From contig JAPPGH010000031.1 of the NCBI GenBank assembly GCA_026914155.1, forward strand, positions 1 through 64,000: a stretch of 64,000 nucleotides of DNA, in the 5' to 3' direction. Both the position numbers and the translations under genes were made by a program. Positions 7,632-52,495 of the stretch are shown here, one piece after another. The stretch comes from Candidatus Palauibacter rhopaloidicola. Its GTDB lineage: Bacteria; Gemmatimonadota; Gemmatimonadetes; Palauibacterales; Palauibacteraceae. The notes beneath the pieces were generated by a model. The model made no database searches. It saw only the letters and a list, made by a program, of their open reading frames with translations, and was not told the origin of the DNA. Numbering within the stretch: position 1 is the stretch's first letter; every line of letters begins with the position of its first letter.

Positions 7632-7755
7632 TGCTTCGCCAACGACTCGGGGGAAAAACTTCACTTTGAGGGCCCGACATAGTACAGTCCCTGCGCTCGA
7701 ACGCCAGCCCGTCCGGCGGCGGCCGTTCGGCCCGCCGCTGCAACCCGGAAAACCC
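7632..7755. promoter_or_regulatory. Divergent intergenic region between two ATP-grasp genes
   Basis: This 124-bp gap separates the outward-facing starts at 7631 (minus) and 7756 (plus), so it must hold promoters for both operons. Around 7655-7690 it has the only relatively AT-rich patch (AAAAACTTCACTTTGAG, then CATAGTACAG). On the minus strand this contains TACTAT, a weak -10-like hexamer; no convincing -35 partner was found on either strand. A CCCGGAA segment just before the plus-strand ATG is at most a weak ribosome binding site. Placement is secure; the promoter elements are guesses. Confidence 0.45.
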
Positions 7756-8979
7756 ATGCCCAACGTCGCTTTCGTCGCCCCGTTCTATCTCCCTGCCACG
7801 CTGCGGTTTCTGGAAGCCGCCGCGGGGCTCGCCGGCGTGCGCCTCGGGGTCGTGACCCAGGAACCGCTCGAGCGAATGCCCGCCTCCCTGCGGCGGAGGG
7901 TCGCGGCGCACGCCCGGGTCGACGACGCGCTGTCGGCGGAGGGCATCCACGTCGGGCTGCGCCAGCTCTCCGGCGAACTCGGCGGGATCGACCGGCTGCT
8001 GGGTGCGCTCGAGGAGCTGCAGGTACCGCTCGGCGAACTGCGAGACGCCCTCGGAATCGAGGGGATGGGCGCGGGGGCGGCGCGCAACTTCCGCGACAAG
8101 TCCCGCATGAAGGACGTTCTGCGGGCGCACGGCCTGCCCTGCGCCCGGCACGCGCTGGTCCGGGACGAGGCCGAGGCGGTGGCCTTCGCGGACGCGACGG
8201 GCTTCCCGCTCATCGTGAAGCCGCCGGCCGGCTCCGGCGCCCGCGGCACATTCCGCGTCGAAACGACGGCGCAGTTGCGCACGGCGATCGCGATGTCGCG
8301 GCCGAGCGCCGAGCGGCCGACACTCATCGAGGAGTTCGTCGTCGGCGAGGAACACTCCTTCGACGCGGTCTCGATCGGCGGACGCGTCGTCTGGCATTCG
8401 ATCAACCACTACCTGCCTTCGCCGCTCGAGGTGCTGCGCGAGCCGTGGATCCAGTGGTGCGTCCTCCTTCCGCGGGAGGTCGACTCGCCCCGGTACGACG
8501 AGATCCGGCGCGTCGCCGGACCCGCGCTCGATGCGCTCGGGATGGAGACGGGGCTGAGCCACATGGAGTGGTTCCGGCGGCCCGACGGTCCGGTGGCAAT
8601 CTCCGAAGTCGGGGCCCGGCCGCCCGGCGCCCAGTTCGTCACACTGATCTCCCAGGCGCACGACTTCGACCTCTACGGCGCCTGGGCGCACCTCCTGGTC
8701 TTCGACGAGTTCGACCCGCCGCCGCGCCCCTATGCGGCCGGCGCGGCCTATCTCCGGGGACAGGGCCGGGGCTCCGTGCGGCGGGTGGCCGGCATCGAAG
8801 AGATCGCGCGGGATCTCGGGCCCCTCTGCGTCGAATGGCGTCTCCCCCGCGCGGGACAGGCGCAGAGCGCGTCCTACGAGGGAGAGGGCTACATCATCGT
8901 CCGCCACCCGCGCACCGAGGTCGTCGAGGAGGCGCTGGAGCGGATCATCACCCGCGTGCGGGTGGAACTCGCCACGTAA
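7756..8979 (+). CDS. ATP-grasp carboxylate-amine ligase
   Basis: 407 aa. N-terminal Rossmann-like domain (MPNVAFVAPFYLP), central ATP-binding loop PLIVKPPAGSGARGT (Lys155), then LIEEFVVGEE, LSHMEWF and EVGARPPGAQ, in the canonical ATP-grasp order. The start is placed at the ATG at 7756, at the point where similarity to the neighbouring ATP-grasp proteins begins; the reading frame extends upstream but only through the divergent intergenic region. Divergently transcribed from the ATP-grasp gene at 7631. It originally preceded the third paralogue by 38 nt, before the integrated element at 9.04-18.52 kb separated them. Likely cytoplasmic; substrate unknown. Close in length and motif order to its two paralogues, pointing to local gene duplication. 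Confidence 0.85.
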   Translation: MPNVAFVAPFYLPATLRFLEAAAGLAGVRLGVVTQEPLERMPASLRRRVAAHARVDDALSAEGIHVGLRQLSGELGGIDRLLGALEELQVPLGELRDALGIEGMGAGAARNFRDKSRMKDVLRAHGLPCARHALVRDEAEAVAFADATGFPLIVKPPAGSGARGTFRVETTAQLRTAIAMSRPSAERPTLIEEFVVGEEHSFDAVSIGGRVVWHSINHYLPSPLEVLREPWIQWCVLLPREVDSPRYDEIRRVAGPALDALGMETGLSHMEWFRRPDGPVAISEVGARPPGAQFVTLISQAHDFDLYGAWAHLLVFDEFDPPPRPYAAGAAYLRGQGRGSVRRVAGIEEIARDLGPLCVEWRLPRAGQAQSASYEGEGYIIVRHPRTEVVEEALERIITRVRVELAT

Positions 8980-9035
8980 CGAAACAGCTCACAAGTAACG
9001 GAACAACACAACGGACCATGAACGTATTGATGATT

Positions 9036-9043
9036 TCGCCGGG
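9036..9043 (+). other. attL core (left junction)
   Basis: TCGCCGGG, encoding Ser-Pro and the first two bases of the Gly codon at codons 7-9 of the interrupted gene start at 9018. The same eight bases occur at 18517-18524 in the same codon positions of the rejoined gene. Flanking similarity (GAACGT, and an ATG five codons in) continues on the 5' side, as expected if the element carries a copy of the gene start. The integrase gene begins 60 bp to the right, the usual position for a tyrosine integrase next to its attachment site. Crossover limits cannot be set more finely without an empty-site sequence. Confidence 0.6.
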
Positions 9044-9056
9044 GAAGGGCGATAAA

Positions 9057-9073
9057 TCCGCAAAGATTGCGGA
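9057..9073. promoter_or_regulatory. Inverted repeat between attL and the integrase gene
   Basis: Perfect 7-bp arms TCCGCAA and TTGCGGA separated by AGA. It lies 13 bp inside the left core and 30 bp before the integrase ATG. The position suits an integrase or directionality-factor binding site, or an operator controlling integrase expression. Function is inferred from position only. Confidence 0.45.
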
Positions 9074-9103
9074 CGCCATGAGGACCCGAAACTAGGGGGA
9101 CCG

Positions 9104-10156
9104 ATGGCGGAGCTTCACGAGCGACACCGGCAACTTCTGGAAAAGGCGACCATGAACCGCAAACTCTCGCCCGCGACGATTCGGAGTTACCGGGGCGGCT
9201 GGAAGCGGTTCCGGCAATGGCTCGCGAGCGAGTATCCGGGGGCGGACCCCTTCGAGGCTGACGCGGACACCGTGGCCGCGTTCGTGGTCGATCTTGTCCA
9301 CGGGGCGACGTTGAGCGACGGGACGGAGCTAAAGCCTTCCACACCCGCGACGGCGGTGCAACGGATCGTCGCTATCAATCACTACCGCCGGGAGCGCGGG
9401 TTGCCGCCGTTCAAGCGGGGAGAGGGAACGATTGCGGAGGCGCTGCACACCGTCCGGCGGGCCGCGCCGCCGACGAAACAAGCGAAGGCGCTACGGCGGA
9501 CCGATCTTGAGACGATATGCGACATGCTGGAGCACCGGACCCGGTGCGGACGAGTGGACCGCCGCAACCGGGCCGGAAACATCCTTTACACGGACTGGCC
9601 GCACGAGCCGGACGCACGTTGCCGGTTCCGCAATCCGACACCCGACGCGGTGAGTAGTGCGCTCGCAATGAAGGCTTACGTCCGCGTCTCGTTCGGTGCG
9701 CTCTTGCGGGTTTCGGAGTGCGTGGCGCTCCGGTGGCGGGACGTGAAGCCTCACCCGGAAGAAAAAGGTTGGGGCGAGGTTCATATCCGGCGGAGCAAGA
9801 CTGACCAGTACGGAGAGGGCGCGGTCCGCTCCGTGGAGCCCGAAGTGATGGATGCGCTCCGGGCGTGGAAACGGCGATCCCGGACCGCCCGCCCGAAGGA
9901 CTACGTTTTCCCGTGGCGGCGACCCGGCAACTACACCCGCCGTCTCAAGCTGGCGGCCAGAGACGCCGGGCTCGCGGACCCGGAGGGGTATTCGTCGCAT
10001 AGCTTGCGGATCGGTCGGGCCGTGGAGCTGGCGGCGGCGGGTGCGTCTGTTTTCGAGATTATGAGCGCCGGACGGTGGAAGGACCCCGCCATCGCTGAGC
10101 GGTACTGCCAGCAAGCGGACCGGGCGCGGGCGGACGCGGCGCTCCGCCGTCTCTGA
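9104..10156 (+). CDS. int: Tyrosine recombinase / site-specific integrase
   Basis: 350 aa. N-terminal SAM-like core-binding domain (residues about 18-120, with LSPATIRSYRGGWKRFRQWL) and C-terminal catalytic domain. Catalytic residues visible are Arg202 in LLRVSE, Lys232 in RRSKTD, His299-xx-Arg302 in HSLR, Trp325 in GRWKD at the usual His/Trp position, and the nucleophile Tyr334 in AERYC, so the enzyme looks intact. Expected role: integration and, with a directionality factor, excision of the element at the ATP-grasp gene start. The ATG at 9104 follows the purine-rich AGGGGGA at 9094-9100. A terminator-like hairpin follows the gene. No excisionase was recognised, though one of the small downstream proteins could serve. 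Confidence 0.92.
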   Translation: MAELHERHRQLLEKATMNRKLSPATIRSYRGGWKRFRQWLASEYPGADPFEADADTVAAFVVDLVHGATLSDGTELKPSTPATAVQRIVAINHYRRERGLPPFKRGEGTIAEALHTVRRAAPPTKQAKALRRTDLETICDMLEHRTRCGRVDRRNRAGNILYTDWPHEPDARCRFRNPTPDAVSSALAMKAYVRVSFGALLRVSECVALRWRDVKPHPEEKGWGEVHIRRSKTDQYGEGAVRSVEPEVMDALRAWKRRSRTARPKDYVFPWRRPGNYTRRLKLAARDAGLADPEGYSSHSLRIGRAVELAAAGASVFEIMSAGRWKDPAIAERYCQQADRARADAALRRL

Positions 10157-10226
10157 GGCTGGCCCGGCGGTGGTGCGGATGCCATCGTGAGGGACTGATA
10201 CCGGCAACGTCGATTTTTGAGGGCTG

Positions 10227-10263
10227 GCCGGGGCGCGGGGGGTTTTGCGCTCCGGCTTTTTTT
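10227..10263 (+). terminator. Rho-independent terminator after the integrase gene
   Basis: 10-bp stem (GCCGGGGCGC paired with GCGCTCCGGC, one G-U pair), 10-nt loop and a run of seven T at 10257-10263. It starts 70 bp after the integrase stop and lies 30 bp upstream of the next start, so it should insulate integrase transcription from the following small-gene operon or act as an attenuator for it. Confidence 0.78.
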
Positions 10264-10292
10264 GTGGAACACGAGCAATGGAGGAACGAGGG

Positions 10293-10589
10293 ATGGAAGG
10301 AACAAGGACGGTGCTCGCGCGGAACATGACGTACCGGCAAATCTGGGAGGCTTATTTTTCGGCCCGCCGGGAACGGCAGCCGCGGTGGAGCGGAGTGGCG
10401 CAGACAAAGCTGGCGCTCGAAGAGGACGGCAAACGCGGCATCTCGCCTGCGGACGCTTTGGAAACGGCCGAGATGCTGCGGCGGATGGCGGAGCGGATGG
10501 AAAGCCCGACCGACCATGACCGTTTCGTAGACGTGGCCGAATCGTGCGAGATAATCGCGGGCAAGCTGCAGGGAGACGAAGAGACATGA
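10293..10589 (+). CDS. Hypothetical helical protein of the element
   Basis: 98 aa, not recognised. The ATG at 10293 is chosen because GGAGG at 10280-10284 lies 8 nt upstream; an ATG at 10278 is an alternative. The protein is mostly helical and charged. Its C-terminal half (LETAEMLRRMAERM, then ESPTDHDRFVDVAESCE) resembles a stretch of the last gene of the element at 17874 (ETASVLRRLADVV, then EPDPDR), hinting at a shared small domain. First gene of a run coupled by ATGA overlaps; its stop overlaps the start of the zinc-ribbon gene. It could be a regulator or excisionase-like factor, but there is no direct evidence. Confidence 0.6.
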   Translation: MEGTRTVLARNMTYRQIWEAYFSARRERQPRWSGVAQTKLALEEDGKRGISPADALETAEMLRRMAERMESPTDHDRFVDVAESCEIIAGKLQGDEET

Positions 10590-10789
10590 CGCCGGAACAA
10601 GCAACATGCGAGACGTGCGGGGGCGCGCTAATTGTCTGCGATAACTGCGGCGTTGCGCTCGCTCCGTTCAAGGTGCCCCGGGTCGGGAAGGGCCGGATAT
10701 GTACGCGGTGCCTCGCGGCTAAGTGGGAGGAAGATTCCGGCGAAGGTGACGCCGCTTCCGAACAACGGGACCGGGCCGACAGGACATGA
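10586..10789 (+). CDS. Small zinc-ribbon protein of the element
   Basis: 67 aa. Contains three CxxC knuckles (CETC, CDNC and CTRC), enough for one four-cysteine zinc ribbon plus an extra pair, followed by an acidic tail. Start at 10586 overlaps the upstream stop by 4 nt (ATGA), and its own stop overlaps the next ATG in the same way. Such small zinc proteins are common accessory or regulatory proteins in phages and satellites. No specific function can be assigned. Confidence 0.6.
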   Translation: MTPEQATCETCGGALIVCDNCGVALAPFKVPRVGKGRICTRCLAAKWEEDSGEGDAASEQRDRADRT

Positions 10790-10887
10790 CGACGCCTAAC
10801 GACCTGCACCGGGACATCGCGCGTTGGGCTTTTCGCGCCGCCCGCCTACGGCGACTCGCGGGCGATGGCGGGAGCGAGCCCGGTTGA
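10786..10887 (+). CDS. Very small basic protein (33 aa) coupled to the zinc-ribbon gene
   Basis: 33 codons, beginning MTTPNDLHRDIARW and rich in Arg, ending in TGA at 10885-10887. Support comes only from the ATGA overlap with the upstream gene, a pattern used throughout the element, and from its place just before a strong terminator. Not recognised; may be a leader-like or spurious frame. Confidence 0.35.
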   Translation: MTTPNDLHRDIARWAFRAARLRRLAGDGGSEPG

Positions 10888-10932
10888 GTAGCTTCCAGAG
10901 ACGACAACCCCGGCAAGGGTGACGCAAAGAGT

Positions 10933-10966
10933 GGCCGGGAGTGCATCGCGCACTCCCGGCCTTTTT
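10933..10966 (+). terminator. Strong Rho-independent terminator
   Basis: Perfect 12-bp stem (GGCCGGGAGTGC with GCACTCCCGGCC), 5-nt loop ATCGC and five T at 10962-10966. It closes the 10293-10887 small-gene run and separates it from the packaging and head operon that begins at 10985, which therefore needs its own promoter or antitermination. Confidence 0.88.
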
Positions 10967-10984
10967 GCATCGTGGAGGGACCGT

Positions 10985-11182
10985 ATGAGGGACAAGCGGA
11001 CGTGTCTTGTATGCGGAAAACGGTTCCAGCCCGCTAAAACCGGCCCGTTCCCCGACGTATGCGGCGGACGGGACGGAGAGTGTTACCGGACACGGGAGCG
11101 CCGCCGCCGGAGGAACAATCCGCGCTATCGCAATGCGCTCGACCGTATCCGCCACGGTTACCGCGCCGCGCCGGTTCGATGA
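10985..11182 (+). CDS. Small zinc-finger, basic protein of the element
   Basis: 65 aa. N-terminal CLVCGKRF knuckle, a second pair of cysteines (VCGGRDGECY), then a strongly basic tail (RTRERRRRRNNPRYRNALDR), suggesting a nucleic-acid-binding zinc finger. The ATG at 10985 is preceded by GGAGGG at 10974-10979 with 5-nt spacing. First gene after the terminator, so it probably leads the morphogenesis operon. Its stop overlaps the next start by 4 nt. It could be a regulator of the late operon; this is inference. Confidence 0.6.
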   Translation: MRDKRTCLVCGKRFQPAKTGPFPDVCGGRDGECYRTRERRRRRNNPRYRNALDRIRHGYRAAPVR

Positions 11183-11592
11183 CGCTACGCGGGCAAGCGG
11201 GACTCCACCGTAAGGACGTAAACGCCGCATATCACGCTTACGCCGTCGCCCGTCCGGGACTCGCCCGTAATGCGCTGCTCGCCTTGCTGACGAAAAAAGC
11301 TCTAAACGATCCCGACTGGTTCGAGGCGCTCCCGCCCGATCCTGGACCGCCGAACGGCGACAGTTACTCGGTGAACCTTACCGGACCCGGTTGGAAAACG
11401 CTGGACGAACTGTGGCGGCGGGAGTGGAAACGGGAGCCGGGCGTTTCTAAGGCGACCATCTGCCGCCGCATCTTTCGAGGCGTGGCGGAATCCTCCGCGC
11501 TCGGCAAGCTCACGCCCAAAAATCAGCGCATCGCGCAGCCGTTCGCCGGGGTGGATCGTATCGAAATTCAACGCGAGGCGGGATCGTGCTAA
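11179..11592 (+). CDS. Hypothetical protein, possible small terminase (TerS) by position
   Basis: 137 aa, not recognised by family. The ATG at 11179 overlaps the upstream stop. A C-terminal segment (GVSKATICRRIFRG) reads like a helix-turn-helix recognition region. The element has a large terminase but no other recognisable small terminase, and this gene is the only one of suitable size with a DNA-binding-like segment in the packaging operon, so TerS is a reasonable candidate. Other possibilities are a late regulator or neck protein. Its last bases overlap the GTG start of the connector gene. Confidence 0.45.
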   Translation: MTLRGQAGLHRKDVNAAYHAYAVARPGLARNALLALLTKKALNDPDWFEALPPDPGPPNGDSYSVNLTGPGWKTLDELWRREWKREPGVSKATICRRIFRGVAESSALGKLTPKNQRIAQPFAGVDRIEIQREAGSC

Positions 11593-12188
11593 CCGTCGTC
11601 ACCGTTCCCGCCGTCCAGCCTATCGAACTCGCGGACGTCAAGGCGCATCTCCGCATCACGGGCTCACGAGAGGACGATACGCTAGGGCGATACATCGCCG
11701 GTTCCGTTTCCGCGCTGGAGGAACGTCTACGCCGTTCGCTTATCACGCGGCGGTATGCGCTGGAGGTTCCCGCGTGGCCGGGCGACGAATGGCCGATAGA
11801 CGCCGCCTCCGTGCGTCTCCGGCGTTGCGTTGACGACCGCGAGGGCCAGCGCCTCCGCCTCCCGCGTCCGCCGATACAACGGCTCGTGGCCGTGGAGACC
11901 GTGACGGCGGACGGAACGGCGACGGCGCTAACCGGGCTCTTGCTCGTGGACGGTGCGATCCTCCGCCCGGATACGGGCTGGCCGGAACTCGCCACGGGCG
12001 ACCGTATCCGCGTGACGTTCGAGGCGGGCCACGGGGCCAGCGCCTCCACGATGCCGGCGGACGTACAACACGCGCTCCGCCTCTACGTCGGCGATATGTA
12101 CTTGAACCGCGAACCGTCCACCGCATCGCCGGACGCTCCCGGTACGATGGCGCTATTCCATCGCCGCGCCGAACGCTGGTCCATATGA
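11586..12188 (+). CDS. Phage head-tail connector (HK97 gp6-like)
   Basis: 200 aa, GTG start at 11586 overlapping the upstream TAA. The N-terminal segment (IELADVKAHLRI, DDTLGRYIAGSVSALEERLRRSL) is the classic start of gp6-type connector / DNA-packaging adaptor proteins (PF05135-like). Near the C-terminus, PADVQHALRLYVGDMYLNRE is the usual final helix. The protein forms a ring below the portal and prepares the head for tail joining. Its presence in an element without tail genes is notable, since it provides the docking surface for a tail made elsewhere. Tail interaction is inferred. Confidence 0.82.
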   Translation: MLTVVTVPAVQPIELADVKAHLRITGSREDDTLGRYIAGSVSALEERLRRSLITRRYALEVPAWPGDEWPIDAASVRLRRCVDDREGQRLRLPRPPIQRLVAVETVTADGTATALTGLLLVDGAILRPDTGWPELATGDRIRVTFEAGHGASASTMPADVQHALRLYVGDMYLNREPSTASPDAPGTMALFHRRAERWSI

Positions 12189-12298
12189 GACCGCCCGCAA
12201 CGCACCGGGAGACCCCGGAGACCCCTACCGCGTCCCGCCGTGGAGAACGTAACCGCGAGTGGACTTCGCATTTCACGGAGCCGGAGGGCTGTATCTGA
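12185..12298 (+). CDS. Short frame (37 aa) in the head-tail adaptor position
   Basis: Starts with ATGA overlapping the connector stop and ends with TGATG overlapping the start of the gp10-like gene, so it is tightly coupled on both sides. In HK97-type phages a head-tail adaptor of about 100 aa usually sits between gp6 and gp10. This frame is far too short and shows no adaptor motif I recognise. It may be a reduced adaptor, an unrelated small protein, or a non-coding spacer. Translation is supported only by the overlaps. Confidence 0.35.
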   Translation: MRPPATHRETPETPTASRRGERNREWTSHFTEPEGCI

Positions 12299-12699
12299 TG
12301 CCGGGGCCGTGGGATGTTCGCTTGGACGGTATCGAGGCGCTGGAGGAAGCCCTACGGGCCGTGGAGCGGGCGGCGGGCGACGTGGAGGGCTCGCGCTCCG
12401 TCGCCGTCTCCGGGACGGCGGACGCGGCGCTAGAGAACTACGCTCGCGGGCCGGGCTTGAATGAGGTACGGGACGCAACGCCGGTGCTTACCGGGCGGCT
12501 CCGGGCGCGGTGGTACGCGGAGCGGTGGGGCGCGGGCCGCGTGTCGATACACAATCCCGAAGTTTACGCCGGGCTCGTGATGGTGCCGGGCGGGATTCCG
12601 TCGCCGCGTTTCGGGGCGGCGCTGGAGAGGGTTAGAGAGGGCGCGGAGCGCGCCATCGGTGACGCGGTGAATAGAGAGCTTGAACGCTTGAACCGTTGA
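12298..12699 (+). CDS. HK97 gp10-like neck / tail-completion protein
   Basis: 133 aa with the ATG at 12298 in a TGATG overlap. The core TPVLTGRLRARW, AGRVSIHNPEVYAGLVMVPGG matches the HK97-gp10-like family pattern (TPxxTGxLR, xVxNxxxYAxxVExG), followed by a C-terminal amphipathic helix. Family members complete the neck or tail-terminator region in siphophages. It is the most tail-proximal protein in the element, consistent with an interface to a helper tail. An in-frame GTG at 12259 is a less likely start. Confidence 0.75.
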   Translation: MPGPWDVRLDGIEALEEALRAVERAAGDVEGSRSVAVSGTADAALENYARGPGLNEVRDATPVLTGRLRARWYAERWGAGRVSIHNPEVYAGLVMVPGGIPSPRFGAALERVREGAERAIGDAVNRELERLNR

Positions 12700-14192
12700 G
12701 CCGGGCTACCGCCGTAGAGCGGTACGTTGCGGGTCTGGAGTGTACGCAAGGCGCGGGCGCTGGCGAGCCGCTGGCGGTGCTCCCGTGGGAGCGCAGTTTC
12801 CTCCGGGGGGCGCTGGCCGATGGTGTGCAGGTTGCCGGGCTCACCGTCGCCCGTGGAGCCGGTAAGACGACGTTTACCGCCGCCATCGCTTGCGCGGCTC
12901 TTGATGGTCCGCTCGCGGTTCCACGGGGCGAGGTTGTGATCGCCGCCTCCAGCTTCGATCAAGCGAAAATCGGACTCCGCCACGTTATGGCGTTCATGGA
13001 GACGCGGGCCGATTTGCGGGACCGCTCCCGGTGGCGCACGGCGGACTCGCAAAACGCCGGATTTATCGAGGATCGGGCGACCGGCTCCCGCGTCCGGTGC
13101 ATCGCCTCAGACCCGCGACGGGCTCACGGGCTCGCGCCGTGTCTGATTCTCGCCGATGAACCGGCACAATGGCCGGAATCCACCGCCGACCGCATGTACG
13201 CCGCGCTCGTTACGTCTCTCGGAAAGATTCCCGGCTCCCGTATGTTCGCGCTCGGAACACGTCCGGCCACGCCGGGCCATTTTTTCGCCCGGTTGCTGGA
13301 CGGCGGCGCGGATTACGCACAACTCCACACCGCGCCGGACGGAGCGCCCATCACGGAGCCGGAGACGTGGCGGGCCGCTAATCCGTCTCTCTCGATTATG
13401 CCCGCGCTGGAGGCGGCGATACGGGCGGAGGCGGAGGACGCCGCCCGCGATCCTTCCTTACTCCCGCAGTTTGAGGCGCTGAGGCTCAATCGAGGGACGC
13501 CGGACACGGCGGAATCACTACTCGCCGACGCGGCGACATGGACGGCGGCGGAGGGCGAGGCGGAGCGGGCCGGGGCGCACGTCATGGGCGTAGATATGGG
13601 CGGTTCCGTCTCGTGGAGCGCCGCCGCCGCATACTGGCCGGATTCGGGAAGGCTGGAGGCGCTCGCGGTTACGGGCGACTCGCCCGCCCTGGACGAAAAA
13701 GCGACACGCGACGGAGTAGACCCGGCGCTTTATCGCGGGCTCCACCGTTCGGGCGAACTCGTGACCGCACCGGGCCGCGTTCCTCCGGCGTCCGCGCTAT
13801 TCGGCGAGGCGATCGACCGATGGGGCGTTCCGGCGCTGATCGTCTGCGACCGCTGGAGGCTCGGCGAGGTAGCGGACGCGCTGGCGGGCGCACGTCTCGC
13901 CGTCCCGGTCGAGACTCGCGGGCAAGGGTGGAAGGATGGCGGCGAGGATGTGAGACGGTTCCGCCGCGCTCTACTCCGTGGCCGCGTGACCCCGGCCCGG
14001 TCGGGTCTCTTGACTCACGCCATATCGGAGACCCGCACCGCCGCCGATCCCGCCGGAAATGAAAAGCTCACGAAACGCCGGGGCGTCCGGTCGCGAGAGG
14101 ATGCCGCCGTCGCCGCCGTCATGGCGGTGGCCGCTGGCGAACGCTCGCGGGCGTTTCCCGTTGTGAAACTCCGCTCCGTGGCGGTGGCGTGA
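12696..14192 (+). CDS. terL: Terminase large subunit
   Basis: 498 aa, TTG start in a TTGA overlap. N-terminal ATPase with Walker A ARGAGKTT (residues 52-59) and Walker B CLILADE (149-155), then a C-terminal RNase-H-like nuclease domain beginning around VMGVDMGG (first acidic residue) with a later IVCDR strand. Length is normal for phage large terminases of the HK97/phi-C31 class. Function: ATP-driven packaging of element DNA into proheads and cutting of the concatemer. The neighbouring HNH protein is a typical cofactor for cos-cutting terminases. Confidence 0.9.
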   Translation: MSRATAVERYVAGLECTQGAGAGEPLAVLPWERSFLRGALADGVQVAGLTVARGAGKTTFTAAIACAALDGPLAVPRGEVVIAASSFDQAKIGLRHVMAFMETRADLRDRSRWRTADSQNAGFIEDRATGSRVRCIASDPRRAHGLAPCLILADEPAQWPESTADRMYAALVTSLGKIPGSRMFALGTRPATPGHFFARLLDGGADYAQLHTAPDGAPITEPETWRAANPSLSIMPALEAAIRAEAEDAARDPSLLPQFEALRLNRGTPDTAESLLADAATWTAAEGEAERAGAHVMGVDMGGSVSWSAAAAYWPDSGRLEALAVTGDSPALDEKATRDGVDPALYRGLHRSGELVTAPGRVPPASALFGEAIDRWGVPALIVCDRWRLGEVADALAGARLAVPVETRGQGWKDGGEDVRRFRRALLRGRVTPARSGLLTHAISETRTAADPAGNEKLTKRRGVRSREDAAVAAVMAVAAGERSRAFPVVKLRSVAVA

Positions 14193-14446
14193 TGTCCGCT
14201 CCGTATGCGCGAGGGTGGCAAGCCCTACGGGACGCGGTAGTGGTGCGAGACGGAGCCGCGTGTACGCGGTGCGCCTCTCGGGATTTTCTGGAGGTACACC
14301 ACCGGGACCGGAACAAGTGGAATAACTCGCCCGGCAATCTGACGACGTTATGCCGGGGTTGTCATAAGCAAGCCCACCGCCGCCGCAATCGTGCCGGGCC
14401 ACGGGCGGACGCTTGGGATCAACTCGCCCGGCAACGGATAGGGTGA
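14192..14446 (+). CDS. HNH endonuclease (terminase-associated)
   Basis: 84 aa. Structural CxxC (CTRC) followed by the HNH core LEVHHRDRNKWNNSPGN and CRGCHKQAH, with both His and the Asn residues present. The ATG at 14192 overlaps the terminase stop as TGATG; a GTG at 14189 is an alternative. In HK97-like phages the HNH protein next to terminase is required for specific DNA cutting during packaging. Here it lies between terminase and capsid rather than upstream of TerS. Confidence 0.88.
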   Translation: MSAPYARGWQALRDAVVVRDGAACTRCASRDFLEVHHRDRNKWNNSPGNLTTLCRGCHKQAHRRRNRAGPRADAWDQLARQRIG

Positions 14447-14453
14447 TGGGAAG

Positions 14454-15698
14454 ATGACGAACGTACAAAAGCTGACGGTAGAGGCGTCCGAACTCCGCGA
14501 GGCGCTAAACACGCTCGCCGGAGATGCGGAGGCTGACGAAACCGCGATCAACGAAAAAACGGCGGAGTATCGCCGCGTGGAGGCGCGGTTGCGGGCCGCG
14601 ATCATCGCGGAGGGCGAGACGCGGGAGCCGGTCGAGCCGGGCGGAGACGCGGAGGCGCGGGAGCGGGACCGCCTCATCGGGGCGGCGGACGTTCGCCGGT
14701 ACGTCTCCGCCGGGCTGCGGGACCGGGCGCTAGAGGGCGCGGAGGCGGAGCTAAACGCGGCGCTTGACTGTCCCGACAACCGGCTCCCGTGGGAGATGCT
14801 GGCGGAGCCGGAGGTGCGCCACCGCGCCGACACGGTGACGGCGGCTCCATCGGACGTCCCGCGCCGCCCGCAACGGACGATCCCGCGAGTTTTCGCCGAT
14901 TCCATACTCCAGTATCTCGGAGTTGAGATGCCGCGAGTAGCGGCGGGCGAGGCGGTTTATACGCACGTCACCGCCGGGGCGTCACCGGCTCCCGTGGCGT
15001 CCGGCGTGGCGAAAGACGCGGAGGCGGGAACGCTCACCGCGATTACGATGAAGCCTATCCGGTTCTCCGCCGCCTATCGGTATCAGGTGGAGGACCGGGC
15101 GCTCTTGGCGTCCATGCCGGACGTACTGCGTTCCGACCTACGGGCGGCGCTCCGCGAAGAACTTTCGGACGTGGCGCTAAATGGCGACGGGGCCAAGCTG
15201 ACGGGCGGCGAGGCGACGGAAAAAGCGCCGGAGGGCTTCATCGGGTCTGACGCGCTCGGGACCGCGCCGACCGATCCCACCGACGCCGCCACGTTCACCA
15301 ACTTCCGCTCGCTGCTTATCTCCGGCGTGGACGGGAAACACGCCTACACGCTCGGCGGCGTCCGGGCGCTCTTGGGCGTGGCGGGCTACAAGCGGGCGGC
15401 GGCGGCGACTGATTCCGCGCTCCAGACTGACGCGCTGGAGTTTATGGCGAGGCGGGGCGGTGGCGTCCGCTCTACCGCGCTCATCACGCCCGCATCGAAT
15501 ATCGAGCAAGCGGTGATTTTCCGGGCCGAACGCGGCGGCGGTTCCGCCGTGTTTCCGATGTGGCAAGGCGTGGAGATTATCGAGGATCGTTACACCGGGG
15601 CGAGTAAGGGCGAGGTACGGTTGCAGCTTATCGCGCTCGGGAACTTCAAGATTGTTCGCACCGCCGCCTATGGGCGGGCGAAACTGAAGGTTGCGTAA
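14454..15698 (+). CDS. HK97-type major capsid protein with N-terminal scaffold domain
   Basis: 414 aa. Residues 1-75 are a charged coiled-coil delta/scaffolding domain (LTVEASELREALNTLAG, INEKTAEYRRVEARLRAAI), and the rest is the HK97 fold. Recognisable parts are the E-loop/spine region (ITMKPIRFSAAYRYQVEDRALL), the P-domain with LSDVALNGDG, and the C-terminal strands (PMWQGVEIIEDRYTGASKGEVRL, LIALGNFKIV). Cleavage of the delta domain by the adjacent protease is expected. The presence of its own capsid separates the element from classical PICIs that remodel the helper capsid. No auxiliary decoration protein was seen. Confidence 0.87.
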   Translation: MTNVQKLTVEASELREALNTLAGDAEADETAINEKTAEYRRVEARLRAAIIAEGETREPVEPGGDAEARERDRLIGAADVRRYVSAGLRDRALEGAEAELNAALDCPDNRLPWEMLAEPEVRHRADTVTAAPSDVPRRPQRTIPRVFADSILQYLGVEMPRVAAGEAVYTHVTAGASPAPVASGVAKDAEAGTLTAITMKPIRFSAAYRYQVEDRALLASMPDVLRSDLRAALREELSDVALNGDGAKLTGGEATEKAPEGFIGSDALGTAPTDPTDAATFTNFRSLLISGVDGKHAYTLGGVRALLGVAGYKRAAAATDSALQTDALEFMARRGGGVRSTALITPASNIEQAVIFRAERGGGSAVFPMWQGVEIIEDRYTGASKGEVRLQLIALGNFKIVRTAAYGRAKLKVA

Positions 15699-15701
15699 CC
15701 G

Positions 15702-16274
15702 ATGCTGTACGGGGTTCGGTGGCGTGCGTCCGGGGCGGTGGAGGCGACCGGGCGCACGCTGGCCGGTACGGTGGTCCAGTATGGGGACGTGGCGGAAACG
15801 CCGGAGGGACCGGAACGGTTCGAGGCGGGAGCTTTTGGCGACGTGGAGACCGTCGCAACGGCGCTCACGCTAACGCACGATCATCTCACGCCGCATCTCG
15901 TGACGACCGGGGCCGGGCTCACGCTTGCCGACGATGGCGAGGCGTTCCGATTCCGGGCCGAACTCCCGCCCGGCAAGCTCGCGGACGGTGCGCTTGATAT
16001 GGTCCGCTCCGGTGCGCTCGCGGGTGCCTCCATGAGTTACGTCCCGCTCCGCGAGCATATGGCCGATGGTGTGCGAGTTGTGACGCGGGCCATGATGCCC
16101 GCTCGCGGTATCGCGCTCGTACATGCTCCGGCGTTTCCCGCCTCCACGGTGGAGGCGAGGGCGGCGGCGACGGCGAACGCGGCGGCGTTTCCCGCCGTGA
16201 TGTGGACGGTAACGGGGCCGGAGGTACGGGAGCCGGTAGAGGGCCGGAGGGAGCGCCGGAGGGTGTTTCTATGA
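15702..16274 (+). CDS. Prohead maturation protease (S78-like)
   Basis: 190 aa. Catalytic His is probably His59 or His61 in LTHDH and the nucleophile Ser110 in AGASMSYV, matching the H...S pattern of HK97 gp4-type proteases. A family-typical VHAPAFPAS strand follows. It should cleave the scaffold domain from the capsid protein encoded just upstream. Starts 3 nt after the capsid stop and overlaps the portal start by 4 nt. The order capsid-protease-portal is the reverse of the common portal-protease-capsid. Confidence 0.87.
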   Translation: MLYGVRWRASGAVEATGRTLAGTVVQYGDVAETPEGPERFEAGAFGDVETVATALTLTHDHLTPHLVTTGAGLTLADDGEAFRFRAELPPGKLADGALDMVRSGALAGASMSYVPLREHMADGVRVVTRAMMPARGIALVHAPAFPASTVEARAAATANAAAFPAVMWTVTGPEVREPVEGRRERRRVFL

Positions 16275-17359
16275 GGCTAGCGGGACTCTGGCGGCGGAGA
16301 ACTCCGGCGGGACGCCACCGGGCCGGGAGCGCACCGTATACGGAGGCGTGGGAAACGCTCTTGATGCGGGCGGCGTCCGGGACTCTCGCCGCCTCCGCCG
16401 CCTCCACGGCGGCGCTTGGGGCCGCGTCCGGGCTTTTCGCCCGTTCGCTTGCCGGGGCCACCGTCCGGCCAGGTGGACACGCGAGGGCCGGGGCCGTCTC
16501 TCGTTCGGTTCTCTACGCCATCGGGCGGGACGTGATCGAGACCGGCGAACATCTCTCGCTCATTGACATGGACACGTCCGCTCGTGTCCGGCTCTTGCCG
16601 GTGGCCGCGTGGGACGTGACCGGCGGGCCGGACCCCGAAACGTGGCGTTATGCGCTCACGCTGGAGGGACCATCGCAAGCGGAGGTTGTCACAACGTCCG
16701 GGGCCGGTGTCCTCCATATTCGGCTATCGCCGGACCCGCGCCGCCCGTGGCGCGGGCGCTCGCCCATCGCCGCCGAAACTGACCGGCTCGCCGGAGGGCT
16801 GGAGCGCCAGCTTGCGGGCGAGGCTGGCGGGCCGGGCGGGAAGGTTTTCCCGGTCCCGACCGTGGGGCGAGAGGGCGAGGCGGCTACACAACTCGCCGCC
16901 AGTCTGAAAACGGCGGCGGGCGGAGTGGTGATTCAAGAGCAAGCGGCGTTTTCCGGGCGCGGCTCCAGTCTGAACGAATACGGGGCGCTCGCCGTCCGGG
17001 GCGGTTATCAAGCTCACACACCGGCCCGGCTCGGAATCGACCCAAACGCCGCTACCGTCGAACTCCGGCGGGACGTGTTCCGCTCCGTGTTGGGGGCCGT
17101 CGGCGTCCCGTCCGATCTATTCGAGCCGGGGCCGGGCGGCGGGCAACGCGAGGCGTTCCGGCGATTCCTCCACGCCAGCGCCGCACCGCTCGCCGGGCTC
17201 GTGGGAGACGCCATCGGCGAGGCGCTGGACATACCGGACTTTGCGCTTGATCTATCGACGCTCAACGCCGCCGACGTGATGGGCCGCGCTCGCGCATACG
17301 GGTCTCTCGTAGGCGCGGGCATGGACCCCGCCGACGCGCTGGAGAAAACCGGGCTGTAA
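16271..17359 (+). CDS. Phage portal protein (HK97 family)
   Basis: 362 aa, slightly short for the family. The ATG at 16271 overlaps the protease stop, giving a start MRLAGLWRRR typical of HK97-type portals. Visible family features are SVLYAIGRDVIETGEHLSLI, the strand AAWDVTGGPDPETWRY, VLHIRLSPDPRRPWRGRSPI and LGIDPNAATVELRRDVFRSVLGAVGVPSDLF, the clip/wing and stem region. It forms the dodecameric ring for packaging and tail docking. Last gene of the head operon; about 500 bp without an obvious gene follow. Confidence 0.87.
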   Translation: MRLAGLWRRRTPAGRHRAGSAPYTEAWETLLMRAASGTLAASAASTAALGAASGLFARSLAGATVRPGGHARAGAVSRSVLYAIGRDVIETGEHLSLIDMDTSARVRLLPVAAWDVTGGPDPETWRYALTLEGPSQAEVVTTSGAGVLHIRLSPDPRRPWRGRSPIAAETDRLAGGLERQLAGEAGGPGGKVFPVPTVGREGEAATQLAASLKTAAGGVVIQEQAAFSGRGSSLNEYGALAVRGGYQAHTPARLGIDPNAATVELRRDVFRSVLGAVGVPSDLFEPGPGGGQREAFRRFLHASAAPLAGLVGDAIGEALDIPDFALDLSTLNAADVMGRARAYGSLVGAGMDPADALEKTGL

Positions 17360-17556
17360 ATCCCACCGTCCCGAAACCGCCTCTCCCGTCACGCTCACAA
17401 TCGCGACGGAGCCGCGCCAGAGCCTCCAGAATCGACGGAGAGGGCCGCGCCGGTATCAGTAGATGCCCGGACCCCGAACGTCGAAAAGAGGCACCATTAC
17501 GCACCGATTAGCGTTTTCCGGCGGGTCTGACGCAGACTTTCGGAGTGCTCCACGGA

Positions 17557-17605
17557 GGGGGGGAAAGAGAGGGGGGGACCGTAGGGGGGGAGAGATTGGG
17601 GCGGG
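17557..17605 (+). other. Putative G-quadruplex-forming sequence
   Basis: Three runs of seven G (17557-17563, 17571-17577, 17584-17590) followed by G4 (17598-17601) and G3 (17603-17605), with loops of 7, 6 and 7 nt. This satisfies the usual four-tract quadruplex rule with unusually long tracts. It lies in the intergenic region after the portal gene. A role in replication, packaging or transcription control is speculative. Confidence 0.55.
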
Positions 17606-17768
17606 TGGCTTTTCTCCGATCCTTCCACGGCGACGCCGTAGGGTTTCGAGGGAGTGAGGGTTGAGAGATGGAGTAGAGGGCGAGAGTAGGTAGGGAGGGA
17701 CTTTCGCCCGATTCCGGGGCAACCGTCGAAACGTCGCAAAACGCAGTAACGGCGCGGGTTCTCCCAAA

Positions 17769-17784
17769 TCTGCAAATTTGCAGA
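17769..17784. promoter_or_regulatory. 16-bp perfect palindrome, probable operator
   Basis: TCTGCAAATTTGCAGA is identical to its reverse complement and sits 89 bp upstream of the GTG at 17874, in the most AT-rich part of the element. The form is that of a site for a dimeric helix-turn-helix repressor. No such repressor is obvious in the element, so the binder could be a host or helper-phage protein, or one of the unrecognised small proteins. Confidence 0.5.
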
Positions 17785-17873
17785 ATAGGGGAAAGCGCAG
17801 GTCCGGTGCGGATGGACAGACCCGGCGGTATCTTCCCCGCGACCGCAGGTTGAGCACGAGGAGCGGAGGAACG

Positions 17874-18353
17874 GTGACGGAGGATACGAGGGACCGGAGA
17901 TGGCACGAGGGCGAGTGCGTCCGTTGCGGCCAGCTTGGCGCGGTGGATGCCGAGACGCGGTTAGACACCGCGTGTTTTGTGCAACTCGCGGACGCCGTGC
18001 TTCACGGTCGGAAAGTGACGGGTCCCGGCGTGGACGCGGTGCGGGCGCGGTTCGGATTGCTCGTGAGGTATGATCGGGAAGCGGCGGAGCGATACCTGCA
18101 CGAGATTCGGGAGACGTGGGCGGCGGTTGTCGGCGACCAACTCACCCGGACGGAGCTACAGGAAACCGCCTCCGTCCTCCGAAGGCTCGCCGACGTGGTG
18201 AAGGGCTACGCGGAGCGCGCCGGAGAGCCGGACCCGGACCGGATGCGCCACGTTGTGGACCTAACGACCGTCGCCGCCGGATGTGAGGCTGCCGCCGAAG
18301 CTGCGGACGATCCCGCCGGACGCGCGTTGGCGCTGGAAAGGTGGCTCACCTAG
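17874..18353 (+). CDS. Hypothetical protein at the right end of the element
   Basis: 159 aa, not recognised. GTG at 17874 with GGAGG at 17865-17869; a start further upstream is possible but lacks a ribosome binding site. The N-terminus has a single CVRC knuckle (residues about 14-17). The rest is predominantly helical (LLVRYDREAAERYLHEIRE, ELQETASVLRRLADVVKGY). A segment resembles the C-terminal half of the protein at 10293, the other hypothetical protein flanking the structural genes. It has its own intergenic region with a palindrome, so it may be separately regulated, for example a cargo or interference gene or a regulator. Function unknown. Confidence 0.55.
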   Translation: MTEDTRDRRWHEGECVRCGQLGAVDAETRLDTACFVQLADAVLHGRKVTGPGVDAVRARFGLLVRYDREAAERYLHEIRETWAAVVGDQLTRTELQETASVLRRLADVVKGYAERAGEPDPDRMRHVVDLTTVAAGCEAAAEAADDPAGRALALERWLT

Positions 18354-18419
18354 ACCGCCCGATCATTCGGGCATCTTCGGGTCCGGGCCATGTTCGAGGC
18401 GCGGACTCGACTCCATAAT

Positions 18420-18436
18420 CCGTTTTACCGAAACGG
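18420..18436. promoter_or_regulatory. Inverted repeat near attR
   Basis: CCGTTT and AAACGG arms around TACCG, about 80 bp left of the right core, in the 145-bp gap before the rejoined ATP-grasp gene. A CATAAT hexamer at 18414-18419 just before it could be a -10 element but has no good -35 partner. It may be an integrase arm site or part of a promoter that now drives the ATP-grasp gene. Confidence 0.3.
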
Positions 18437-18498
18437 TTTATACCGCCTCTCGCGTACACCGCGCGGAGGTAGTACCTTTTACTGGAGCCGGATTTTTG

Positions 18499-19716
18499 TT
18501 GAACGTCCTCATGGTATCGCCGGGCTACCCGGCCGAGATGACCTGGTTCACGCGCGGGCTCGCGGAGGTGGGAGCGAACGTCATCGGCCTGGGCGATCAG
18601 CCCGGGGCGGCGCTGCCCGAGATCGCCCGGGCGAGCGTGTCCGACCACCTGCAGGTGAGATCGCTGGCCGATGAGGCGGACGTGATGCGGCAGGTCGCCG
18701 AGTTCGCCGCGCGAACACGGATCGATCGCGTGGAGTGCCTGTGGGAGCCCTTCATGATCCTCGCCGCGCGGCTGCGCGAGATGCTGGAACTGCCGGGGCC
18801 GACCGTCGAGCAGACGCTCCCCTTCCGCGACAAGGAAGTGATGAAGGACGTGCTCGACGCCGCCGGGATCCGGACGCCCCGCCACGGGAGGGCCACGAGC
18901 AACGCCGAGTGCCGCGAGGTCTCGGAGCGCGTCGGCTTCCCCCTCATCGTGAAGCCCGTCGCCGGCGCCGGCTCGGCCGATACCCACCGGGTCGATTCGG
19001 CGCGGGATCTGGAGCGGGTCCTTCCCGCCCTGCGGCACGTCCCCCAGGTCACGGTCGAGGAGTTCATCGAGGGCGAGGACATGACCTTCGACACGGTCAC
19101 GGTCGGAGGCGCCGTGGCGCACTACAACATCTGCCGCTACTGGCCCCGCGCCCTCGAGTCGAAGACGCACGAGTGGCTCAGCCCCATCACGTACGCGCTG
19201 CGCGACGTGGAGGCGGATGATGTCGCCGCCGGACGCGAGATGGGGTTCGCCGTGCTCGCCGCGCTCGGATTCGAGACCGGCTATACGCACATGGAGTGGT
19301 ACCGGACCGCGGACGGGGAGGCCGTGTTCGGCGAGATCGCCGCGCGTCCCCCCGGCGTGCGGACGGTCGACCTCATCAACTTCGCGAGCGACATCGACAC
19401 CTACCGCGGGTGGGCCGAAGGCGTCGTGCACGCGACGTGGTCGCAGCCGGTGGAACGGAAGTACAACGCCTGCTGGATCGTCAAGCGGGCGCGTGGACAG
19501 GGCCGGATCCAGCGCATCGAAGGGCTCGGCCCGCTGCTCCAGGAGTACGGCGAGCGGGTGTGCAGTCTGGATCTGCTCCCGGTGGGGTCACCCCGGCGGA
19601 ACTGGCAGGCGACGCTCGTCTCCGACGGGATGATCTTCCTCCGGCACCCGGACCTCGCGGCGCTGGAGACGATCGCCGGCGAGTTCGCGACGCGCCTGCA
19701 ACTCTACGCCGCCTAG
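18499..19716 (+). CDS. ATP-grasp ligase whose first codons are supplied by the integrated element
   Basis: 405 aa with TTG start; GGAG at 18484-18487 lies 11 nt upstream. Rossmann-like N-terminus (MNVLMVSPGY), ATP loop PLIVKPVAGAGSADT (Lys152), VEEFIEGED, THMEWY and EIAARPPGV, the same order as the paralogues at 6408 and 7756. The native start is stranded at 9018-9043 on the far side of the element; codons 1-6 here differ in DNA (TTG AAC GTC CTC ATG GTA) but almost preserve the protein (one Ile to Val change). The gene thus remains intact after integration, though its native promoter is 9.5 kb away. Its TAG overlaps the stop of the convergent branching-enzyme gene by 2 nt. Confidence 0.85.
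   Translation: MNVLMVSPGYPAEMTWFTRGLAEVGANVIGLGDQPGAALPEIARASVSDHLQVRSLADEADVMRQVAEFAARTRIDRVECLWEPFMILAARLREMLELPGPTVEQTLPFRDKEVMKDVLDAAGIRTPRHGRATSNAECREVSERVGFPLIVKPVAGAGSADTHRVDSARDLERVLPALRHVPQVTVEEFIEGEDMTFDTVTVGGAVAHYNICRYWPRALESKTHEWLSPITYALRDVEADDVAAGREMGFAVLAALGFETGYTHMEWYRTADGEAVFGEIAARPPGVRTVDLINFASDIDTYRGWAEGVVHATWSQPVERKYNACWIVKRARGQGRIQRIEGLGPLLQEYGERVCSLDLLPVGSPRRNWQATLVSDGMIFLRHPDLAALETIAGEFATRLQLYAA
18517..18524 (+). other. attR core (right junction)
   Basis: TCGCCGGG, identical to 9036-9043 and in the same codons (Ser-Pro-Gly) of the ATP-grasp start. To its left is element DNA carrying a substitute start; to its right the uninterrupted host gene continues. Joining 9018-9043 to 18525 onward restores an open frame reading MNVLMISPGYPAEM without any shift, which supports these limits. 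Confidence 0.6.
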
Positions 19717-52442: not shown

Positions 52443-52495
52443 CTGTCGCTCCTCGAATGTCGTATCTGCGCTGGACGGCACCCGATGCAATTCGA

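Follow-up and report, generated by a model that had tools for sequence, protein, structure and literature searches.

Introduction

In the accounts on which we draw, satellites that make their own head and take a tail from another phage are known chiefly from enterobacteria, Pasteurella and firmicutes. Streptomyces and Vibrio provide further cases, and one paper calls the capsid-forming phage-inducible islands (cf-PICIs) widely distributed across Bacteria. As defined in PMC10690885, cf-PICIs such as EcCIEDL933 carry genes for an integrase, capsid, protease, portal, connectors, large terminase and HNH protein, and no tail genes. The same source describes the Mulch/Flayer satellites of Streptomyces phages (MulchRoom, MiniFlayer), which have their own capsid and packaging genes and no obvious replicase, parasitise virulent phages, and possess direct terminal repeats and an unusually low GC content; MulchRoom appears to take its helper's tail. 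The cf-PISP satellite-plasmids of Vibrio, in the description given in PMC13230959, combine head and packaging genes with an Stl-like regulator and have no tails.

Here we analyze a 64,000-nucleotide stretch of DNA from Candidatus Palauibacter rhopaloidicola (contig JAPPGH010000031.1, positions 1 to 64,000; hereafter the window), in which an initial annotation had pointed to an element with its own head and packaging functions and a borrowed tail. Compared by description, this element resembles cf-PICIs in having capsid, protease, portal, connector, large terminase (TerL), HNH and integrase genes, an att site, and no recognised tail gene; the 280–329 kb region of EDL933, examined for EcCIEDL933, had no capsid or portal gene annotated. 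AlpA is a PICI trait, and primase or replication genes are usual in PICIs. Because no small terminase, AlpA/Stl-like regulator or primase was recognised in the window element, and because its 9.5 kb falls below the mean of 14 kb quoted for cf-PICIs in PMC10803314, strict membership of that class is unproven; class aside, the gene content fits the logic originally proposed. The Mulch/Flayer satellites are likened to the element by description; the virulent phages that they parasitise, their terminal repeats and their low GC content set them apart. Compared with the cf-PISPs described in PMC13230959, the window element differs in its integrated state and in lacking a recognised ParA, but a similar idea is seen in a relative (L041), apparently circular at 9,018 bp, in which a ParA-like gene but no integrase was labelled.

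Results

A discrete element inserted at the start of an ATP-grasp gene

The initial annotation had placed the element at 9036–18524, and these positions proved to be its ends. The core repeat, TCGCCGGG, lies at 9036–9043 in attL and at 18517–18524 in attR, delimiting a discrete integrated element of 9,481 bp (Table 1). As an 8-bp repeat alone is no proof, the ends were accepted because the insert is missing from relatives: the proposed search for the element at the same site in related genomes found the site empty in all 12 same-genus loci having both flanks. The two flank matches overlap in 11 of the 12, and in the most diverged (L127) about 63 unaligned bases lie between them. The flanks are host genes that directly adjoin in these relatives, and the larger prophage with the same ends that would have spoken against a satellite was not seen. 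The element is inserted site-specifically in the 5′ end of the ATP-grasp gene, of which it re-supplies the first nine codons. The genome assembly comprises 63 contigs, with an estimated contamination of 6.11%.

Table 1. Features of the element and of its integration site, in window positions
Feature	Position	Strand	Evidence and remarks
attL	9018..9043	+	severed 5′ end of host ATP-grasp ORF (MNVLMISPG); identical to the start of the gene in G010 (L116), where it is uninterrupted
Tyrosine recombinase (integrase), 350 aa	9104..10156	+	PF00589 1.8e-11, phrog_1 2.5e-16
Terminator-like hairpin 3′ of integrase	10226..10257	+	surrounding fold ordinary against shuffles, z −1.36
98-aa ORF	10293..10589	+	no family match
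67-aa zinc-ribbon-like ORF	10586..10789	+	PF12773 E 0.016, below cut-off (scanned as 10544–10789); Cys pairs visible
Terminator-like hairpin, 12 perfect pairs then T-run	10933..10961	+	z −3.75; 0/200 shuffles as stable
65-aa Cys-containing ORF	10985..11182	+	no match at E≤0.01 (scanned as 10919–11182)
137-aa ORF, just 5′ of adaptor	11179..11592	+	no family match (scanned as 11059–11592, which includes the ORF)
Head-tail adaptor	11586..12188	+	phrog_442 3.5e-22; PF05135 1.1e-8
Neck / HK97 gp10-like protein	12259..12699	+	phrog_5 1.1e-4; alternative ATG at 12298
Terminase large subunit (TerL)	12696..14192	+	phrog_9 1.7e-57; TTG start
HNH endonuclease, 85 aa	14189..14446	+	PF01844 1.5e-6
HK97-type major capsid protein, 414 aa	14454..15698	+	PF05065 3.5e-4, below Pfam cut-off; phrog_617 1.7e-4
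Prohead serine protease	15702..16274	+	PF04586 1.5e-8
Portal protein	16271..17359	+	PF04860 2e-6, below cut-off; analysed as 16274–17359 or 16202–17359
159-aa ORF at right end	17874..18353	+	best match E 0.027 (scanned as 17778–18353)
attR	18499..18524	+	element-borne substitute for first nine ATP-grasp codons; TTG start, LNVLMVSPG
Host ATP-grasp gene (integration site)	18499..19716	+	reading frame restored by the element

Head and packaging genes

The element reads integrase, small ORFs, adaptor, neck protein, large terminase, HNH, capsid, protease and portal. All the genes listed beforehand (integrase, connector, gp10-like protein, TerL, HNH, capsid, protease and portal) are present with open frames and Pfam or PHROG matches. 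The statement that the structural genes are intact and overlap their neighbours holds for the frames, but only in part for the overlaps: between the 137-aa ORF and the portal gene there are seven junctions, of which four overlap by 4–7 bases and three are gaps of 3, 7 and 70 bases. The best solved match of the adaptor is Rcc01688 of the Rhodobacter gene transfer agent (6tba, 6.2e-10), and the relative of the neck protein in L022 matches phrog_5 at 5.3e-8. TerL carries what we take to be the Walker A, Walker B and nuclease Asp residues, which are conserved in alignment A1; the A1 profile matches the solved terminase 6z6d at 5.2e-56. The HNH protein has a further match, to phrog_4581 (labelled terminase small subunit), at 2.5e-7, which is weaker than its matches to HNH families. 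For capsid and portal, whose own matches are weak, family profiles lend support: alignment A2 reaches the solved capsid 8gta at 2.3e-5 and alignment A3 the solved portal 9i8c at 1e-5. Neither the window capsid nor the window portal had a match in 50,697 phage records (tblastn, E≤0.01), and the capsid of relative L098 had none there at E≤0.01. This gene content shows that an HK97-type head programme, a packaging motor (large terminase with HNH nuclease) and head-side connectors are encoded. Two features at the right end were absent from the initial annotation: about 514 bp without a called gene (17360–17873) and the 159-aa ORF. The two terminator-like hairpins in Table 1 are likewise additions to it.

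The early region and missing functions

The hairpin at 10933–10961 separates the early ORFs from the head operon. Of the two hairpins this very stable one alone is telling, because a scan for terminator-like sites gave 11 where shuffled sequence gave 6.6 on average. Rfam gave nothing at gathering score in 8500–19000 and, at E≤5 in 10150–11000, only weak matches that we took as chance; no iteron-like array was seen in 9000–18560 among the repeat families listed (20 of 24). The position of the 137-aa ORF (11179–11592) would suit a small terminase.

As had been claimed, no tail, lysis, replication or repressor gene was recognised among the element's ORFs in Pfam and PHROG scans; tail families were found for none of the scanned window-element ORFs by Pfam, nor by PHROG among the matches listed (25 of 82 families over 80 ORFs). 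No small terminase, excisionase, AlpA/Stl-like regulator or primase/replication gene was recognised in the window element, in which several small ORFs have no assignment. In the relatives' ORF set A6, HTH_17 matched 2 of 80 ORFs and replication-initiation-type families matched 3 of 80. An intact temperate siphophage was rejected, no tail, lysis or replication modules having been recognised within the element ends.

The helper prophage that had been suggested for the same genome was not found in limited profile searches. With phrog_9 and phrog_2 the window TerL alone was recovered, and the tail families PF10145 and PF04984 gave nothing. PF04860 and PF05065 were also silent, which means little because both models miss even the window's own portal and capsid.

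Relatives of near-uniform size

The same head block was confirmed at 17 loci in GTDB genome contigs, and related TerL proteins occur in 59 viral contigs. An end search covering 14 loci gave no repeat, and hence no size, for L022, L026, L100, L104 and L109. Both ends are defined in nine elements including that of the window, which measure 9,471–10,658 bp (mean 9,906, s.d. 462), although the nine sizes are not independent, L110 and L111 sharing a site and L101 and L103 coming from one bin. The eight relatives with defined ends stop at the 3′ end of a tRNA and are bounded by exact repeats 16–47 bp long. Five viral contigs of 9,018–10,416 bp were taken as circular from exact 99- or 127-bp end repeats, their TerL proteins being 36–50% identical to that of the window. 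Three of the apparently circular genomes of about 10 kb encode a protein of 602–766 aa, of a type that the window element does not have; in L050 the long protein, read by eye, has a gp6-type adaptor-like start followed by a low-complexity, fibre-like stretch.

Among 126 otherwise unlabelled ORFs of these 14 elements (nine with defined ends and five apparent circles), the listed matches to structural families comprised types of connector and a single Dit-like tail-family match (in L103), the Pfam list being complete for the 80 ORFs of A6 and the PHROG matches listed being 25 of 82 and 25 of 33 families. A tail terminator was recognised in L027, another relative (phrog_179, 2.7e-8). In nine gene comparisons from three pairs of relatives, dN/dS was 0.13–0.39, with dS near 1 in four, showing purifying selection in the relatives compared. 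Searching 60 genomes with the capsid returned the own genome only (1/60), scanning viral contigs with a single protein (TerL or capsid) revealed no relative, and searching plasmids with a group-B block gave nothing. L098 and L160 look like one contig, with the same length and the same ORFs.

TerL phylogeny and comparison with phages

In a TerL tree, the window element belongs to a supported clade; its hosts carry the labels of eight phyla, and the labels include Gemmatimonadota, Chloroflexota, Alphaproteobacteria and Binatota. Tree rows were at least 380 aa long, to which were added L036 (352 aa) and other rows that had been read again from tblastn ranges; L028–L035, L037, L038, L050, L053, L057, L063, L071, L078, L079, L084, L090, L091 and L092 lie outside the tree, and L106–L108 were omitted because they duplicate the contigs of L023, L036 and L022.

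The block had been expected not to form part of a full siphophage genome, and this mostly held. The TerL of one siphophage (contigs L054/L055) sits within the window clade, on a very long branch (1.83), and the adaptor profile also labels L055; with the profiles for capsid, protease and portal, neither contig was labelled. L034 is a more complete prophage of this class and has ORFs of 959 and 1,515 aa; its matches to the iterated adaptor, capsid, portal and TerL profiles are distant (identity 28% for TerL and 24% for the adaptor). HK97-type siphophages have the same kinds of head proteins, on the HK97 map, and a TerL of 24.8% identity over 82% of the query, but they measure about 37–42 kb and carry full tails, and the window capsid and portal were undetected in phage records by tblastn. 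A second IMG/VR group (most of L058–L090) likewise has TerL, capsid, protease, portal, connector and integrase genes, often in about 10 kb. By contrast with the window element, its connector lies 3′ of the portal gene and there is often a large upstream ORF, and an ORF of 1,511 aa occurs in L060; the group's TerL proteins, of about 30% identity, form a separate 26-row clade with 100/100 support.

Discussion

We consider it likely that the element is a capsid-forming phage satellite, which makes and fills a head of its own but relies on a borrowed tail. Since no helper was found in the genome, the borrowing of the tail is a step that we infer. In such a life cycle, infection by or induction of a tailed phage would cause the island to excise, and helper or host enzymes would replicate it. 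The late head genes, lying behind the strong terminator-like hairpin, would then be turned on, and the element's own small head would be filled with one genome of about 9.5 kb. The adaptor and neck proteins would join this head to the helper's tail, and the helper's lysis would release hybrid particles able to infect new cells.

Prophage decay is common, and limited searches of the genome reveal no other phage module; a related TerL in G046 is, moreover, clearly broken into three fragments. It nevertheless seems quite unlikely that the locus is a degenerate prophage that has lost its tail, lysis and replication genes. Its ends are precise, 12 of 12 relatives have no insert, the window ORFs are intact and the dN/dS values among relatives are low (0.13–0.39), while att-bounded and circular relatives in differently labelled hosts keep to a narrow size range; a shared size and gene set argue against decay, as independent decay would not be expected to converge. 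The earlier opinion that this is no rotting prophage draws support from the same precise ends, empty sites, tight size in unrelated hosts and purifying selection in relatives.

An autonomous minimal virus, whose genome of about 10 kb would be complete and whose short neck or an unrecognised protein would deliver DNA without a helper tail, appears unlikely. In its favour are the apparently circular genomes of this size in metagenomes and the 602–766-aa protein of three of them, with its fibre-like stretch in L050, but the window element has no such long protein; its ORFs of 98, 67, 65, 137 and 159 aa could hide functions, yet no lysis or replication genes were recognised in it. The neck proteins, moreover, are of kinds that join head to tail in siphophages, and the tail terminator of L027 would serve no purpose unless there were a tail tube. 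Gene transfer agents occupy fixed positions in the host genome and comprise complete clusters of head and tail genes. The adaptor's best solved match speaks for a domesticated capsid cluster of that sort, which is nevertheless very improbable for an element with its own integrase and att sites that is missing at all 12 same-genus sites, encodes no recognised tail and has relatives that seem to circularise.

For a tail-taking satellite, the occurrence of relatives of near-equal size in several labelled phyla suggests a widespread parasite. More tentatively, and with rather less than even confidence, we propose that they form an undescribed lineage of compact capsid-forming satellites, with a genome of about 10 kb per small head (perhaps T=3), across eight labelled phyla in communities such as sponge microbiomes. 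These would make the head themselves and take only the host-specific tail from whatever tailed phage infects, and some members would be circular, integrase-less or ParA-bearing episomes. Spread across phyla would then be possible, as the tail, the host-specific part, is all that such a satellite would have to borrow.

For T=3 capsids, PMC7762592 predicts genomes with a mean of 11.8 kb (range 8.1–17.1), and describes such capsids as unseen in tailed phages at its writing; the lineage would provide candidate tailed-phage-type heads for about 10 kb of DNA, a size predicted for T=3. Some contigs of about 10 kb held as 'incomplete phage' in viral databases may be complete satellites. One conserved genome size across labelled phyla would show how general the head-making, tail-taking lifestyle is, and such a lineage would offer a route for DNA between phyla.

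Integration site

We searched all 17 genomes of the genus, the source genome included, for the ATP-grasp gene starting at 18499, and matched it in 14. Both flanks were present at 12 loci, from 12 other genomes of the genus (G003 gave a weak match only), and the insert was absent from all 12. At 11 of these empty loci the flank matches overlapped by the length of the repeat; at the most diverged, L127, about 63 unaligned bases separated them. The nearest empty site (L116 in genome G010; 97-98% identity) has an uninterrupted gene start, MNVLMISPGYPAEM. In the window, the left end retains MNVLMISPG followed by element sequence, and the right end reads LNVLMVSPG, with a TTG start, fused to YPAEM. 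Together with the intact gene in G010, these ends indicate that the element integrated site-specifically into the 5′ end of the ATP-grasp gene, supplying its new first nine codons. Most differences between the two nine-codon copies lie at third codon positions, a pattern to be expected had one copy arrived with the element. Other ATP-grasp similarities near the site are tabulated.

Table. Elements with defined ends and other features; L-numbers denote loci or contigs of relatives, other positions refer to the window
Feature	Position	Size	Remark
Window element	9036-18524	9,481 bp	both ends defined
Core common to both ends	9036-9043, 18517-18524		TCGCCGGG
Terminator-like hairpin	10933-10961		z -3.75
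ATP-grasp-like genes side by side	6408-8979, 18499-19716		from reading of translations
Short similarity to ATP-grasp gene at 18499	8186-8381
GC dip	52000-55000		GC about 0.62
ORF in GC dip	52876-53583	235 aa	regulator- or antitoxin-like by eye
ORF in GC dip	53676-54797	373 aa	nuclease-like by eye
L098		10,658 bp	tRNA 3′ end, predicted Sec
L099		10,148 bp	tRNA 3′ end, Arg
L101		9,863 bp	tRNA 3′ end, Arg
L103		10,594 bp	tRNA 3′ end, Ser
L110		9,709 bp	tRNA 3′ end, Ala
L111		9,471 bp	tRNA 3′ end, Ala
L113		9,740 bp	tRNA 3′ end, Lys
L114		9,494 bp	tRNA 3′ end, Glu
Dit-like match	L103:3107-3595	162 aa	where L101 has a neck-type protein
Long protein	L050:3484-5778		between protease and portal
Long protein	L092:3263-5563		between protease and portal
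Long protein	L091:3535-5343		between protease and portal
Long protein	L048:5314-7986		between protease and portal
ParA-like gene	L041:4095-4712 (-)		no integrase label on contig

Gene content and helper search

The source genome comprises 4.1 Mb in 63 contigs, and the window covers bases 1-64000 of its contig 44. The element is a single block with all genes running left to right: integrase, small ORFs, adaptor, neck protein, large terminase (TerL), HNH, capsid, protease, portal and, after a gap of about 514 bp, a 159-aa ORF. The integrase, adaptor, neck, terminase, HNH and protease were recognised by Pfam and PHROG. Capsid and portal matched their own Pfam models under the curated cut-off, and family-member alignments linked the capsid to solved capsids (8gta and, more weakly, HK97 gp5) and the portal to a solved portal. 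The TerL family profile matched the solved terminase 6z6d (5.2e-56), and the closest solved match of the adaptor was Rcc01688 of the Rhodobacter gene transfer agent (6.2e-10). The element carries a head and motor gene set, minus a recognised small terminase; among the window ORFs scanned, Pfam and PHROG matched none to a family of tail, lysis, replication or repressor proteins, and ARAGORN found no tRNA in the window. Per-kilobase GC was 0.66-0.71 inside the block versus about 0.71 in the adjoining kilobases.

When the source genome was searched with phrog_9 and phrog_2, the window TerL was the sole match, and PF10145 and PF04984 had none; within these limited searches, no resident helper was seen. 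The known capsid-forming island EcCIEDL933 can likewise be without a helper in its own strain: HK106 and HK446 mobilise it, and none of the 17 prophages of its strain does so detectably (PMC11389934).

Element size

End repeats were sought in 14 loci, and the five without one were excluded from the size count. Eight end-defined relatives carry exact repeats of 16-47 bp at tRNA 3′ ends. The TerL profile scan yielded 59 viral contigs, seven of which had exact end repeats of at least 15 bp. In five of these (L041, L049, L050, L091 and L092), whose TerL is 36-50% identical to that of the window, the repeats measure 99 or 127 bp, and the contigs were taken as circular, at 9,018-10,416 bp; the others were L057 (TerL 32%, 9,236 bp) and L077, from a second group of elements, with a 24-bp repeat only. 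The mean over 14 elements (nine end-defined, five circular) was 9,871 bp (s.d. 485). That element sizes agree so closely across unrelated sites and hosts suggests that the head sets a size limit. For a genome of about 9.5-10.7 kb, a head of about T=3 would be predicted (PMC7762592).

Relatives and their tail-side genes

TerL matches, some weak or fragmented, occurred in 16 of 395 genomes of the phylum, the source genome included, and portal matches in 14 of 394 genomes of the class, namely the source genome and 13 from one other family. Of 309 candidate stretches in GTDB genome contigs, 17 were borne out by a profile scan; they are titled Gemmatimonadetes, Alphaproteobacteria (some Rhodospirillales), Latescibacterota, Binatia, Truepera, Acidimicrobiia, Actinomycetes, Chloroflexi, Nitrospinota and one Gammaproteobacteria. 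These host phyla are submitters' labels on metagenome bins and may be wrong; the Gammaproteobacteria label (L107) is doubtful, the match being the same as L036, placed in the window's class. Apart from the jk18x7 bins, we presume a sponge origin for other bins among the relatives, partly from their names. The jk18x7 bins derive from an Ircinia sponge (PMC9531527). Two differently named Chloroflexi bins (L110 and L111) share one element, located in both at the same tRNA-Ala site, and five compared proteins are 93-97% identical between them. In L104 and L025 the order of the head genes is a circular permutation of that in the window: capsid and portal precede terminase, as though one circular head module had received exchanged att sites and integrases. 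In genome G188, TerL pieces lie at several contig ends (C8, both ends, C53 and C50; L030-L032, L161), which suggests two or more satellite copies with common DNA that broke the assembly.

We then considered the 126 ORFs of 14 bounded or circular elements that profiles for integrase, adaptor, TerL, HNH, capsid, protease and portal left unexplained (sets A6, 80 ORFs, and A7, 46). Pfam, run on A6, gave a complete list of 18 families, made up of integrase domains, HTH types, a DnaT-like family, HNH, trypsin, DUF4145 and one Dit-like tail family. With PHROG, the best 25 of 82 families for A6 and the best 25 of 33 for A7 comprised integrase, adaptor, replication initiation, HNH, small-terminase-labelled, neck, head closure, ParA and repressor kinds, and included no tail tube or tape measure. 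Other relatives carry adaptor, closure and neck proteins, and L027 also a tail terminator, all of which are head-side parts of a siphophage neck.

Four viral contigs, of which L050, L092 and L091 are apparently circular, encode a 602-890-aa protein. The L092, L091 and L048 copies are 32%, 36% and 23% identical to the L050 copy, which leaves the kinship of the L048 copy unsure. By eye, the L050 protein has a gp6-type adaptor-like start followed by a long fibre-like stretch; a fusion of adaptor and fibre might equip a head that lacks a tail with an attachment organ of its own. The ParA-like gene of L041, an apparently circular 9,018-bp relative, and its missing integrase label suggest a plasmid-like satellite resembling in idea the Vibrio cf-PISPs.

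Phylogeny and comparison with phages

In a 75-row TerL tree the window fell inside a 36-row clade (support 100/98), apart from HK97, PAJU2, AP-16-3, phiC31 and BhaS-171. A second clade of 26 rows, mostly elements of about 10 kb, was separate; the second group, from IMG/VR (L058-L090, mostly about 10 kb), carries TerL, capsid, protease, portal, connector and integrase. Differently labelled host phyla alternate within the window clade, for example Nitrospinota L114 lying with L022 of the window's class and Alphaproteobacteria L113 near Gemmatimonadetes L098.

Counting against the satellite reading, a siphophage (two contigs, L054 and L055; full length 42-43 kb) lies in the same clade beside L110 and L111, on a branch of 1.83. 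L055 has a 2,352-aa ORF, tail-tip-like by eye, and an adaptor matching the family profile; capsid, protease and portal profiles labelled nothing on either contig. A fuller prophage of the window's class, L034, has ORFs of 959 and 1,515 aa and distantly matches the adaptor, capsid, portal and TerL profiles (TerL 28%, adaptor 24% identity). Searched against 50,697 phage records, the window capsid, the window portal and the L098 capsid matched nothing at E<=0.01; by contrast, TerL had 69 matches at E<=0.001. By a simple count method, dN/dS was 0.13-0.39 in nine gene comparisons from three pairs of relatives, with dS near 1 in four; these values indicate that the compared genes of the relatives have been kept functional. 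No relative is near enough to the window element for it to be compared in this way.

Proposed life cycle

Under the satellite reading, helper arrival would trigger excision, and helper or host would replicate the element. Late genes would be expressed downstream of the terminator-like hairpin, one genome would be packaged per small head, the head would dock to a helper tail via adaptor and neck, and helper lysis would free the particles. In the literature searched, mostly without subscription papers, we found no publication that reported capsid-forming satellites from Gemmatimonadota or from symbionts of sponges. The own-head, borrowed-tail way of life is already known; what seems new is a compact, replication-poor lineage whose hosts are labelled as many phyla.
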